From assembly GCA_017628205.1 (NCBI GenBank), contig JAGBZO010000014.1, positions 1 through 35,435 on the forward strand: a DNA stretch of 35,435 nucleotides. Reading direction: 5' to 3'. The notes below the pieces were generated by a model. The model was not told the origin of the DNA and did no database searches. It saw nothing but the letters and a program-made list of their open reading frames with translations. Made by a program: the position numbers and the translations under genes. This stretch comes from Duodenibacillus sp. (lineage in GTDB: Bacteria > Pseudomonadota > Gammaproteobacteria > Burkholderiales > Burkholderiaceae_F). Within the stretch, counting starts at the first letter, position 1. The number at the start of each line of letters is the position of its first letter. Shown one piece after another: positions 18,007 to 28,626 of the stretch.

Positions 18007-19638
18007 TTACTTCTTGGCATTCTTGGCGGCGATGGCGTCGCGCAAGATCTTCGTAGCCTTGATGGCGGCGTCGGCACTCTTAGCGAGAGACAAAGCGGCC
18101 TGTTCAGGATTGTGGAAGTAGGCGCCGTTAGCAGCGGTCCACCATTCCCAGTTGGTGTGAGCAACGGAGTGGAGTTCCTGAGCCTTCTTGATGGCTTCGC
18201 CCGTGATGCCGAAGTTCTTGGCTTCGACGAAAGCGTTGAACATTTCGTTCATACGGCTTTCAGCTTCACGCAACTTACCGACGTGGTAAGCGTGCATACC
18301 GTCGATAACGCGGTTGAGCTGGTCAACAGACTTGTCCTTATGGCAGTTCTGGCAGGTTTCCTTCAGGTAGTTACGCGGCGAGGTAGCCCAGTGAATCGTC
18401 GTTACCTTACCATCCTTACCCTTAACCTTCGGCATATGGCAGTCACCGCACTGTACGCCGGCCTTGTCGTGCTTGGAGTTCCAGAACACTTCAACGTCGG
18501 GGTGCTGCATCTTCGTCAAGGCGGCGCCGGTCATCGGATGCTTGAAGTCCTTGAAGCCGACCTGCTTGTAGAAGTCGTCGATCTTGGTGATGTCAACCAA
18601 CGGGAAGAGGTTGGTCAACTGGCTCTTCATGCCGATCTTTTCGCCGGTCTTGGGATCGAAGCCCGGGTTGCAGTTGTATTCAACGTGGCACTGAGCGCAC
18701 ATCAACTTCGTATCGGCCTTTTCGAGCATACCGATCTTGCGGGTGAAGCCGCGAACGCCGAGGTCGACAACTTCAACCTTGGTTGCGTTCTTGTCTTCAG
18801 AGTACAAGGACGGGATATCCTTACGCGTTACGGCCTGGATCAAACCGTCGCGAACGATACGCGGCTTGGCGGAGTGAGGATCGTGGCAGAAGTTGCAGTT
18901 CAAGGCGTGGTTAACCTTGCGCATCACGTCAACGACCTTGGATTCACGAGAGAACGTCGTACCCGGAACGTTGTCGCCGAGGTAGGCCCAGTCGAGAATC
19001 AAGTCGGTGGACTTGCAGCTCCAGCAAACGGGGTTAGCGGCAGCAGCGGTGCCCATACGGCGCGGCTTCTGTTCGTTATCCTGCGGGAACTTGTCGTTGA
19101 TGACGTCCCAAACCTTGATGGCGCCCTTTTCGTGAGCCAGGTACATCCAACCTTCCTTCGGAGCGAAACGATCGCCGAAAGCACGGTCGCAGAGGTACTG
19201 GTCGAGAGCGGCGAACGTATGGCTACGCGGTTCGTTGTGTTCCTTCGTGAAGCCATGCATGCCCATAGCGCGATCGAAGAAGGGGCTCGGAGCTACGCTT
19301 TCGGCAGCCTTCTTGGAAGCGCGAGGCGTGATCGCGGTATTGACCTTATACATCGATTCAAACTGTGCAGGGTGGCAGTTACCGCACGTCTGAGGATCCA
19401 TGCTCGTTACGGGACGGGTTTCCTTACCGGGGTTGCCGGCATGCTTTTCCAAGCCGGTGTGGCAACTCGTGCAGGAGAGGTCCTTGTGCTTGCCGACGGT
19501 ATGGAACTGACCGATATTGCCGTGGCAAGCGGTACACATCTGCTGATTGATCTTTTCAGCAGCGTTTACGGAGGGGGTGAAAGCAAGAGCAACGGCCGCA
19601 GCGATAAGGGCCTGCATCATTTGTTTCGAATGTGACAT
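18007..19638 (-). CDS. Octaheme cytochrome c nitrite reductase (ONR/TvNiR type, ammonia-forming)
   Basis: A 543-residue exported multihaem cytochrome. The signal peptide is about residues 1-26, with likely cleavage after VNA. Eight haem motifs are present: CTACH (35), CTSCH (56), CGNCH (85), CWSCK (205), CNFCH (248), CAQCH (314), CGDCH (397) and CQNCH (429). Haem 4, with lysine as ligand, is the expected catalytic haem. Three extra N-terminal haems plus a five-haem NrfA-like core is the plan of octaheme nitrite reductases, not pentahaem NrfA. The catalytic tyrosine region reads CHVEYNC: Tyr321 and Cys323 match the Tyr-x-Cys pair cross-linked in TvNiR. His416 in TTIHW is a candidate for the active-site His. 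The enzyme reduces nitrite to ammonia in the periplasm. The start is the ATG at 19638 with GGAG eight bases upstream. Confidence 0.9.
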   Translation of the reverse strand: MSHSKQMMQALIAAAVALAFTPSVNAAEKINQQMCTACHGNIGQFHTVGKHKDLSCTSCHTGLEKHAGNPGKETRPVTSMDPQTCGNCHPAQFESMYKVNTAITPRASKKAAESVAPSPFFDRAMGMHGFTKEHNEPRSHTFAALDQYLCDRAFGDRFAPKEGWMYLAHEKGAIKVWDVINDKFPQDNEQKPRRMGTAAAANPVCWSCKSTDLILDWAYLGDNVPGTTFSRESKVVDVMRKVNHALNCNFCHDPHSAKPRIVRDGLIQAVTRKDIPSLYSEDKNATKVEVVDLGVRGFTRKIGMLEKADTKLMCAQCHVEYNCNPGFDPKTGEKIGMKSQLTNLFPLVDITKIDDFYKQVGFKDFKHPMTGAALTKMQHPDVEVFWNSKHDKAGVQCGDCHMPKVKGKDGKVTTIHWATSPRNYLKETCQNCHKDKSVDQLNRVIDGMHAYHVGKLREAESRMNEMFNAFVEAKNFGITGEAIKKAQELHSVAHTNWEWWTAANGAYFHNPEQAALSLAKSADAAIKATKILRDAIAAKNAKK

Positions 19639-19933
19639 AGTAAATCTCCTTCGTGACTTTTTCGATCGTCCGAACACGTCTTGGGGGGATTGGTGCCTTT
19701 CGATCACATCACTTGACGGAATTTAAGCAAAAATTAAGCGCCTAATCGACCCCCTATCATCTCCCAGTATTTTGCTCGTCTATGATCGAGCGCAGTAAGA
19801 ACAAACTTAAACAACTGTTTTTATTGATGAAAATTATTTTCCTCATCTTTTATATTGACTAAGCAATTCTCTGTAGTGCGCTCACTTTTAGGGGTTTTCC
19901 ATAATCGCCCGCGTTGATTTTAAGGCTTAATCA

Positions 19934-25883: not shown

Positions 25884-25910
25884 TCATTTTTGCGCTTGAG
25901 GTTCTCAAAA

Positions 25911-27377
25911 ATGCGACTCATTCAGAAAGCTCTTACGTACGACGACGTTCTGCTCGTTCCGGCGTACTCCGAAGTTCTCCCCCGAGACGTCAGTCTCTCC
26001 ACCAAGCTTACGCGCGACATCACGCTGAATCTCCCGATGATTTCCGCCGCCATGGATACGGTAACGGAAAGCAATTTGGCCATCGCCATGGCTCAGGAAG
26101 GCGGTCTCGGCATCATTCACAAGAACCTGACGGCTCAGCAGCAGGCGGCCGAAGTAGCCAAGGTTAAGCGTCACGAATCCGGCGTTGTGAACGACCCCAT
26201 CACCGTTGGTCCCGGCATGCTCGTCGGCGACGTCGTTCGCATGTGCCGCGAACACAACATCAGCGGCGTGCCCGTCGTTGAGGGCCGTCGCGTTTTGGGT
26301 ATGGTCACGAACCGTGACTTGCGCTTTGAAACCCGCATGGAAGCTCCGATCAGCGAAGTCATGACTCCGCGCGATCGTCTCGTCACCGTTCTCGAAGGCT
26401 CTCCGCTTGAAGAAGCCAAGCGTTTGATGCACCAGAACCGTCTCGAACGCGTTTTGGTCGTTGACAAGGATTACAACCTCAGCGGCTTGATCACCGTCAA
26501 GGACATCGTCAAGGCTCACGAACATCCCTACGCCGCCAAGGACAAGGACGGCAAGTTGTTGGCAGGCGCTTCCATCGGCGTCGGTGCCGGTACGGAAGAA
26601 CGCGTTGAACTGTTGGTAGAAGCCGGCGTCGACGTCGTTGTCGTCGATACGGCTCACGGCCACTCCAAGGGCGTTTTGGACCGCGTCGCATGGGTTAAGA
26701 AGAACTATCCCAACCTTCAGGTTATCGGCGGCAACATCGCTACGGGCGACGCCGCTCGCGCTTTGGCCGATCACGGTGCCGACGGCGTTAAGGTCGGTAT
26801 CGGCCCGGGTTCCATTTGTACGACCCGTATCGTTGCCGGCGTCGGCGTGCCTCAGGTCACGGCCGTCAGCAACGTTGCTCAGGCTCTCGAAGGTACCGGC
26901 GTTCCCCTCATCGCCGACGGCGGCTTGCGCTTCTCCGGCGACATCGCCAAGGCCATCGCTGCCGGCGCCAACTGCGTCATGATGGGCGGCTTGTTGGCAG
27001 GTACGGAAGAGGCTCCGGGCGAAGTCATCCTCTACCAGGGCCGTTCTTACAAGTCCTACCGCGGTATGGGCAGCTTGGGCGCCATGTTCAAGGGTTCCGC
27101 CGACCGTTACTTCCAGGACAACAACTCCGGCAACCTCGACAAGCTCGTTCCGGAAGGCATCGAAGGCATGGTTCCGTTCAAGGGCTCCGTTTTGACCATC
27201 CTCTATCAGATGGCCGGCGGTTTGCGCTCTTCCATGGGCTACTGCGGTTGCCGCACGATCGACGAAATGCGCACCCGCGCCCAGTTCGTCGAAATCACGG
27301 CTGCCGGCTGGCGTGAAAGCCACGTCCACGACGTGAAGAACACGAAGGAAGCCCCGAACTACCGTCAGGAAAACTAA
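25911..27377 (+). CDS. guaB: Inosine-5'-monophosphate dehydrogenase
   Basis: A 488-residue IMP dehydrogenase that oxidises IMP to XMP with NAD+, the first and rate-limiting step to GMP. The catalytic loop [13 protein letters not shown] carries Cys303. Two CBS domains occupy about residues 93-204. The [13 protein letters not shown] and MGSLGAM segments of the barrel are intact. The ATG at 25911 has GAGG nine bases upstream; an upstream start at 25890 is less likely. guaA follows on the same strand, but a strong terminator lies between. Confidence 0.98.
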
Positions 27378-27394
27378 CCGACGGTACGTTGACT

Positions 27395-27430
27395 CGGCGC
27401 GAGTACACTACTCGCGCCGTTTTCTTTTTG
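27395..27430 (+). terminator. Terminator between guaB and guaA
   Basis: A perfect 11-bp stem CGGCGCGAGTA / TACTCGCGCCG with a CAC loop is followed by TTTTCTTTTT. It separates guaB from guaA, so guaA needs its own promoter or read-through. Confidence 0.93.
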
Positions 27431-27491
27431 TGTCGCTCTTTCCAAACGGATCCGACGACACAAAAAGTCTTGACATTTTGTGACCGAGAGG

Positions 27492-27539
27492 CGTTCGGAT
27501 TAGTTGCCGTCGTTATAATTATCGGATGCCCTCCGAACG
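27492..27539 (+). promoter_or_regulatory. guaA leader with inverted repeat around a TATAAT
   Basis: CGTTCGGA (27492-27499) and TCCGAACG (27532-27539) form a perfect 8-bp inverted repeat that encloses a TATAAT at 27514-27519. A TTGACA occurs earlier at 27470-27475, but the spacing to this -10 is too long. The repeat may be an operator or a leader hairpin; I cannot tell which. A second pair GAACCG/CGGTTC follows further down the leader. Confidence 0.45.
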
Positions 27540-27645
27540 TTTGGACGCTTGGCGTTTTGAACCGCTCGCAATCGATCCGGTTCATCAAACCGCTCTCGGA
27601 CCGTACTGAATTTCATATTCATCATCATTGAGGAGATATCTCATC

Positions 27646-28626
27646 ATGTCTACCATCGTTCGCCCCGAATCCATGGAGCGTATCACTAACGAAGCTTTGG
27701 CCAACGCTTTCATTGAATAACAGGTCAAGGCGATCCGCGAACAAGTTGGCGACAAAAAGGTATTGTTGGCTCTCTCCGGCGGTGTTGACTCCTCCGTCGT
27801 GGCCGCGTTGTTGATCAAGGCTATCGGCAAGCAGCTCGTTTGCGTGCACGTCAACCACGGTTTGTTGCGCAAGGGCGAACCCGAACAGGTCGTCGAAGTT
27901 TTCCGCAACCAAATGGACGCCAACCTCGTTTACGTCGATGCCGTCGATCGCTTCCTCGACAAGCTCGCCGGCGTTGCCGATCCCGAAACCAAGCGCAAGA
28001 TCATCGGCGCCGAATTCATCCGCGTCTTTGAAGAAGAAGCCCGCAAGCAGGAAGGCATTGAATTCCTCGCACAGGGTACGATCTACCCCGACATTCTCGA
28101 AAGCCACGGCGTGAAGGCTCACCACAACGTCGGCGGTTTGCCCGACGATCTGCAGTTCGGCTTGGTCGAACCCGTCCAGTTGCTCTTTAAGGACGAAGTT
28201 CGCGTCGTCGGCAAGACCCTCGGTCTGCCCGACAACATGGTTTACCGTCAGCCGTTCCCCGGTCCCGGTCTCGGCGTTCGTTGCTTGGGCGCCATCACGC
28301 GCGACCGTTTGGAAGCCGTGCGCGAATCCGACGCCATTTTGCGTGAAGAATTCGCCAAGAACGGTTTGGAAGGCAAGGTATGGCAATACTTCACGGCCAT
28401 CCCCGACTTCAAGTCCGTCGGCGTCAAGAACGACAAGCGTACCGACGCCTGGCCCGTCATCATTCGCGCCGTCAACACCGTTGACGCCATGACCGCCACG
28501 GTTGAAGACGTTCCCTTCGCTCTGTTGCAGCACATCACCAATCGCATCACGAACGAAGTCGAAGGCGTCAACCGCGTTCTCTTCGACCTGACGCCGAAGC
28601 CCTGCGGCACCATCGAATGGGAATAA
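27646..28626 (+). CDS. guaA: Stand-alone GMP synthase ATP-pyrophosphatase subunit, interrupted by an in-frame TAA
   Basis: GMP synthase converts XMP to GMP with ATP and ammonia. Only the ATP-PPase and dimerisation domains are encoded; the ~200-residue N-terminal glutamine amidotransferase domain of ordinary GuaA is absent, and there is no room for it upstream. The frame opens with an ATG at 27646 after a GAGGAG site and gives 24 residues ending NAFIE. It then meets TAA at 27718-27720 and continues in the same frame to a normal end (TIEWE). FIE-stop-QV aligns with the FIEEQV or FIEQQV expected of relatives, so the TAA replaces one GAA or CAA codon by a single substitution. P-loop SGGVDSS is at residues 44-50 and the [12 protein letters not shown] motif is intact. 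A TTG at 27763 could restart translation but has a poorly spaced site. Truncation, sequencing error, recoding or a recent nonsense mutation are all possible. Confidence 0.85.
27718..27720 (+). other. In-frame TAA at codon 25 of guaA
   Basis: The TAA is followed by CAG GTC AAG GCG in the same frame, and the codons downstream match the GuaA family without gap. The frame is open for 301 further codons before its natural stop. Confidence 0.9.

Follow-up and report, generated by a model that had tools for sequence, protein, structure and literature searches.

In the window, a 35,435-nt stretch of Duodenibacillus sp. DNA, a short guaA gene is interrupted by an in-frame TAA (27718-27720, +) after 24 sense codons from the ATG at 27646. 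Very probably, this TAA is an isolated and very young nonsense change, not a programmed one, and strong purifying selection acted on the gene up to that point. Downstream of it lie 301 sense codons in the same frame, free of any further stop, which lead to a normal C-terminus and a terminal TAA at 28624-28626. A sequence-only reading of this DNA had described a ribosome-binding site, an ATG, 24 codons, a TAA and 301 open codons, and direct reading confirmed this arrangement. The features of the locus are as follows.

25890-27377 (+): guaB (IMP dehydrogenase), intact, upstream neighbor; from the ORF list, with 91–92% amino acid identity to guaB of same-genus genomes G003 (residues 6-495) and G006 (residues 4-495)
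27395-27429 (+): terminator-like hairpin of 11 pairs plus T run, 3′ of guaB; pattern scan
27514-27519 (+): TATAAT, possible –10 element of a guaA promoter; direct reading
27630-27635 (+): GAGGAG, ribosome-binding site, 10 nt before the ATG; direct reading
27646-27717 (+): short guaA codons 1–24, before the stop; aligned with the N-termini of relatives
27718-27720 (+): in-frame TAA; a sense codon in relatives
27721-28626 (+): last 301 codons of short guaA plus normal stop (ATP-pyrophosphatase and dimerization domains); profile and structure matches
27754-27768 (+): AAAAAGG then TTG TTG, the sole plausible near restart site after the stop; direct reading

A short guaA and its surroundings

The part of the gene downstream of the stop was identified on its own merits. 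It scored 453.9 bits with NF000848 (cut-off 400), 442 bits with TIGR00884 (cut-off 338.75) and 126.1 bits with PF00958 (cut-off 27), in each case above the curated threshold, and its residues 2–301 align with solved GMP synthetases, including 7sbc, 1gpm, 6jp9 and 2dpl. The 24 codons upstream of the stop, taken alone, matched no NCBIfam family. For comparison, we searched 66 other genomes of the family, three of which (G065, G066 and G086) contain the same short gene, and drew on the best 80 of 593 loci confirmed in a contig scan (86–92% identity). The 24 codons align, gap-free in the coding part, with the gene start in G065, G066 and two Mailhella loci. They also align with most of the 80 loci, a few of which, such as L108, begin differently. 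Since these codons match the gene start of relatives, the segments on either side of the stop are parts of one gene.

Judged as a GMP synthetase gene, the locus has no unbroken frame from its start codon, being cut at the TAA. Judged as a two-domain GuaA gene, it has no room for an N-terminal GATase domain, as the SGGVDSS (PP-loop) motif follows just 43 codons after the ATG. The earlier description of an otherwise intact guaA thus holds for a short form of the gene but fails for full guaA, whose GATase domain is absent.

Upstream of the gene, TATAAT sits 3′ of the terminator-like hairpin behind guaB, an arrangement by which guaA may have its own promoter. The hairpin scan gave 2 sites versus 2.3 in shuffles, and it is position and sequence that back the hairpin at 27395-27429; the promoter scan did not report the TATAAT at 27514-27519. 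The TATAAT context is CGTTATAAT in the window and in G065, and CGCTATAAT in G066. In the window, G065 and G066 (loci L172 and L171), CGTT or CGCT precedes the TATAAT. Upstream of the ATG, AGGAGA is present in all five rows of the alignment (window, G065, G066 and the two Mailhella loci). A riboswitch before guaA was considered and rejected: at gathering thresholds, Rfam yielded just three tRNAs in the window.

Isolation of the stop and selection on the gene

Alignment with guaA of relatives, as the sequence-only reading had proposed, showed that the stop is private to the window among the loci compared. All 80 loci (the best 80 of the 593) have a sense codon at the TAA position—67 Glu, 9 Gln, 2 Asp, 1 Lys and 1 Gly—and so do G065, G066 and G086. 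At the DNA level, the whole short guaA is 84, 83 and 82% identical to its counterparts in G065, G066 and G086, respectively. The highest protein identity of the post-stop part, 96% over 299 columns, is to the short GuaA of G086. That genome is a single contig in which unknown residues are scattered through genes (locus L170, G086:C1:634000-646000), with extra residues beside them in the short GuaA. Its assembly looks corrupted or patched, so G086 was used with care. Across the order, TIGR00884 matches were obtained in 282 of 300 genomes, with no internal stop among the matches listed; this profile reaches just a few positions before the TAA site.

The rest of the gene appears healthy. Estimated by the Nei–Gojobori method with the stop codon skipped, dN/dS for the window gene was 0.069 versus G065, 0.065 versus G066 and 0.055 versus G086, values that are rough because dS is 0.88–0.96. 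They fall inside the range seen among the intact genes of G065, G066 and G086 (0.029, 0.082 and 0.083). Among these four genes, the window has 8 unique residues besides the stop, and G086 has 6. Measured against 72 relatives of equal length (9 of 81 rows were of other length and left out, and G086 was not included), one of the 301 residues is private to the window, at a site not conserved at a level of at least 95%. With the remaining gene in this state, the stop must be young relative to the divergence of these genes, or absent from the DNA. An established pseudogene was rejected on the same grounds: a single lesion, low dN/dS and a single private residue.

We also assessed how unusual such a stop is in its own genome. 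The sample comprised 20 stretches of the same genome plus the window, 395,160 bases in all or ∼22% of 1,829,222. In it, 1709 in-frame stops were preceded by 20 or more open codons and followed by 60 or more. In 12 of these cases, the sequence on each side scores higher in the frame of the stop than in any of the other five, with the guaA stop at the top of the ranking. The remaining 11 are each followed by an ATG or GTG no more than 14 codons downstream and look like junctions of tandem genes. A second score also placed the guaA stop first, of 1705. The guaA stop seems to be the only one of the 1709 that lies inside continuous coding sequence in the 395-kb sample. Because the window was chosen for this very finding, the independent result is that none of this kind was seen in the ∼360 kb outside it. 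The six-frame test took its codon usage from 192 ORFs. It was used in place of an earlier broken-frame filter, which kept 129 of the 1709 stops and lost the guaA stop to a longer antisense shadow frame. Protein comparison with G003, of the same genus, uncovered no broken gene in our sample among the 38 testable ORFs (of 620 G003 ORFs), a small number. In the reverse comparison, where 26 of 334 ORFs were testable, one was flagged, with the in-frame stop on the G003 side. The guaA gene itself is beyond the reach of this comparison, as G003 has the long form (∼56% identity).

Cause and consequence of the stop

Of the causes put forward earlier, a base-call error and a very recent nonsense mutation are supported as the leading ones, as is the picture of one lesion in a sound gene. 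The stop may well be a real allele of the sampled population, truncating GuaA after 24 residues, though we rate this at somewhat under an even chance; nearly as plausibly, it is a wrong base in the draft consensus. We hold the two about equal. Counted toward consensus error is the draft state of the assembly (50 contigs). Counted toward a real allele is the precedent that guanine auxotrophy can be survivable in rich surroundings: in C. difficile, a research article reports, cells that lose guaA die in minimal medium, whereas rich medium lets them survive (PMC9312489). Viral contigs were scanned for the 26-base site with any base allowed at 27718, and gave no matches.

A real allele would mean that full-length GMP synthetase is no longer made. 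XMP from GuaB could then not be converted further, leaving salvage of guanine or related purines as the source of GMP. Loss of function and dependence on salvage, like the choice between allele and error, are points that we infer. No second GMP synthetase was found in the genome, where short guaA is the sole GMP_synt_C (PF00958) match; with the genome 85.66% complete, a second guaA could be missing from the assembly. As a null in the sole visible GMP synthetase, a real allele would be costly unless guanine is supplied. Seven phosphoribosyltransferase-domain matches were found in the genome, one of them under the family cut-off. Among candidates for salvage, the strongest is a phosphoribosyltransferase encoded on contig 5, which scored just 49.8 bits with the xanthine phosphoribosyltransferase model (cut-off 138). 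Neither of two phosphoribosyltransferase proteins tested further passed the guanine- or xanthine-specific cut-offs, and one of them passes the adenine phosphoribosyltransferase model.

Loss of function is not certain even for a real allele, since restart at TTG would give a 287-residue product that retains the PP-loop. Restart at TTG 27763 or 27766 is possible. We consider it unlikely, though, that the stop is real and the enzyme still made, either by such a restart, which would yield an active 286–287-residue synthetase without its first helix, or by low read-through of the TAA. AAAAAGG stands 2 and 5 nt before the two TTGs, which start 42 and 45 nt downstream of the TAA, and the SGGVDSS motif is downstream of both. 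An enzyme still made would also keep the gene useful, fitting its lack of decay. Yet the Shine–Dalgarno-like letters and the TTG pair are simply codons of DKKVLL, and TTG TTG encodes Leu-Leu also in the stop-free genes of G065 and G066, so nothing sets the putative restart site of the window apart. As a start codon, TTG is weak. Initiation at TTG 27763 would cost the enzyme the residues of its first 39 codons, and the stretch that would go, FI..QV...Q(V/I), is recognizable in the 80 loci (best 80 of 593). Read-through and restart alike have against them that no stop occurs at this site in the relatives examined and that anticodon TTA occurs in none of the 49 tRNAs found. All 49 were typed, and they form an incomplete set.

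These tRNA data also weaken the suggestion of a suppressor tRNA. Recoding of the TAA is unlikely, and we assign only a negligible chance to its being decoded as an amino acid, whether by a suppressor tRNA or under an altered code; the sole argument for this is that the frame stays open past the TAA. The end codons of 322 ORFs picked in the sample were TAA (167), TGA (119) and TAG (28), with 8 run-offs, some of these ORFs being shadow frames. TAA is thus the commonest end codon, in support of the earlier view that it is not generally reassigned. Nor was a second TAA inside coding sequence seen in the 395 kb. Programmed read-through or recoding was rejected, there being a stop at this site in none of the 80 loci (best 80 of 593), nor in G065, G066 or G086, and no UAA-reading tRNA among the 49. 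The idea that the 24 codons form a short leader ORF was weakened by the finding that they are the ordinary N-terminus of the enzyme in intact relatives. With no separate short ORF there, an evolved leader peptide with reinitiation was rejected as well.

Origin of the short gene and its nitrogen supply

Taken alone, the stop is unremarkable: a single recent nonsense base in a draft assembly, not a new mechanism. More interesting is the short guaA, through which, judging from drafts, a bacterium appears to have a glutaminase-free enzyme as its sole GMP synthetase. The sequence-only reading had missed this: the gene encodes a short GMP synthetase that lacks the glutaminase, it seems to have entered the lineage from elsewhere, and no other GMP synthetase was found in the genome. 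Seven of nine same-genus genomes have long guaA frames instead, of 530 to 571 codons and 56–58% identical to the short gene. The other two (84 and 87% complete) gave no match. In G003 and G006, the long guaA follows guaB; the same place is assembled in the window and holds the short gene. Given this and the 91–92% identity of guaB, guaB looks native and guaA foreign. The arrangements in the family are listed here.

Window 25890-28626 (G000, the window's own genome): guaB, short guaA
L172 256-2963 and L171 2065-4822 (G065 and G066): guaB, short guaA
L170 4635-8975 (G086): guaB, long guaA, short guaA

A 105-row tree places the short genes of the window, G065, G066 and G086 together (100/90). This group is nested in a clade that is mostly Clostridia by record title, plus two Mailhella, and that clade stands apart from 22 long genes. 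The root was placed for drawing only, the 22 long genes are all from this order, and long Clostridia genes and archaeal genes were left out. From tree and gene order, we read the short guaA as transferred from a Clostridia-like pool, displacing long guaA at the guaB–guaA place. In G086, both forms of guaA follow guaB, the long one first, and this arrangement looks like an intermediate of the displacement. The order guaB, long, short is also seen in L060 and L064 (Mailhella). A relic of long guaA between guaB and guaA was sought and rejected: the 420 bases around the gap contain no clear remnant, the best match being 10 residues (E 0.15). Relatives of the short GuaA are also present on IMG/VR contigs L198, L199 and L200 (85, 86 and 76% identity, L200 covering residues 167–301 only). 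These may be phage-borne genes, and hence a possible transfer vehicle, or host flanks.

Whether the short enzyme has a glutaminase partner was assessed in 34 genomes, 5 of this family and 29 outside it that hold short-guaA loci, hand-picked from the 80. A GuaA-type GATase (TIGR00888) was over cut-off in 27 of the 34; those without were the window's genome, G065, G066 and 4 of the 29 outside. PF00117 matched in two places in the window's genome (85.66% complete), which we read from the ORFs and their neighbors as CarA and HisH. PF00958 genes number one each in the window's genome, G065 and G066 (85.66, 93 and 82% complete) and two in G086 (85%). We infer that the species of the window, G065 and G066 have a glutaminase-free GMP synthetase as their only copy and, with no GuaA-type GATase found in these genomes, that they would make GMP from free ammonia. 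A review (PMC10526850) lends this some support, stating that the synthetase part of known GMP synthetases accepts outside ammonia in vitro. Against an ammonia-only reading, the same source gives glutamine as the preferred substrate of GMP synthetases; every enzyme studied had a much higher Km for ammonium (ammonium chloride up to 174 mM) than for glutamine. Another point against it is that most outside genomes have a long gene as well as the short one. In most of the 29 outside genomes (G091–G119; Clostridia by title, two Mailhella), a long GMP synthetase accompanies the short one, the two lying close together in, for example, G109, G110, G105 and G117.

A long guaA outside the assembled sequence, with the short gene as a spare in early decay, strikes us as improbable; this reading overlaps with the real-allele half of the account above. 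In its favor, 25 of the 29 outside genomes with short guaA (hand-picked from the 80 loci) have a GuaA-type GATase over cut-off, G086 of the same family has long and short genes in tandem, and 85.66% completeness leaves space for a lost copy. But the place that long guaA takes behind guaB in G003 and G006 is assembled here and occupied by the short gene, with no clear long-guaA relic in the 420 bases around the gap. Moreover, PF00958 and TIGR00888 reveal no second GMP synthetase in the window's genome, in G065 or in G066. The window also has an ORF at 18007-19707 (–) with several CxxCH-like motifs and a CWSCK motif, a putative NrfA-like protein (nitrite to ammonia). This candidate could be an ammonia source in the same cell.

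With the two-domain, glutamine-hydrolyzing GuaA (NF000848; 1gpm, 7sbc), the window gene shares the ATP-pyrophosphatase and dimerization domains (post-stop residues 2–301), but it has no GATase domain, and its genome has no GuaA-type GATase over cut-off. Subunit B of the archaeal two-subunit GMP synthetase (2dpl, 6jp9) is likewise a separate ATP-pyrophosphatase polypeptide, of ∼310 residues, and aligns over the same post-stop residues. Unlike the archaeal case, no subunit A (GATase) was found in the window's genome, which is 85.66% complete, and the short gene falls in a mostly-Clostridia clade, in a tree without archaeal rows. According to a research article and a review, bacterial GMP synthetase combines its two domains in a single polypeptide, and the split form is archaeal (PMC9312489, PMC10526850). 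The literature searched yielded no description of a stand-alone bacterial GMP synthetase, which speaks for that search and does not establish absence from print. An established parallel in logic is the ammonia-dependent single-domain NAD synthetase, also an amidating synthetase without glutaminase, from which the window enzyme differs in substrate. That NAD synthetase is described as using ammonia and having glutamine-using relatives, with lineage-specific loss and horizontal transfer (PMC3376133).

A further-reaching reading, which we rate as less likely than not, is that some apparently gut-dwelling Burkholderiales have replaced the long GMP synthetase behind guaB by a clostridial-type, ammonia-fed domain, and that the stop in the window is genuine, leaving the strain on salvaged guanine or on a TTG-restarted enzyme. 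If true, the short guaA would exemplify an enzyme that has given up its own source of nitrogen, in surroundings assumed to be ammonia-rich, and would be a bacterial counterpart of the ammonia-only NAD synthetase.
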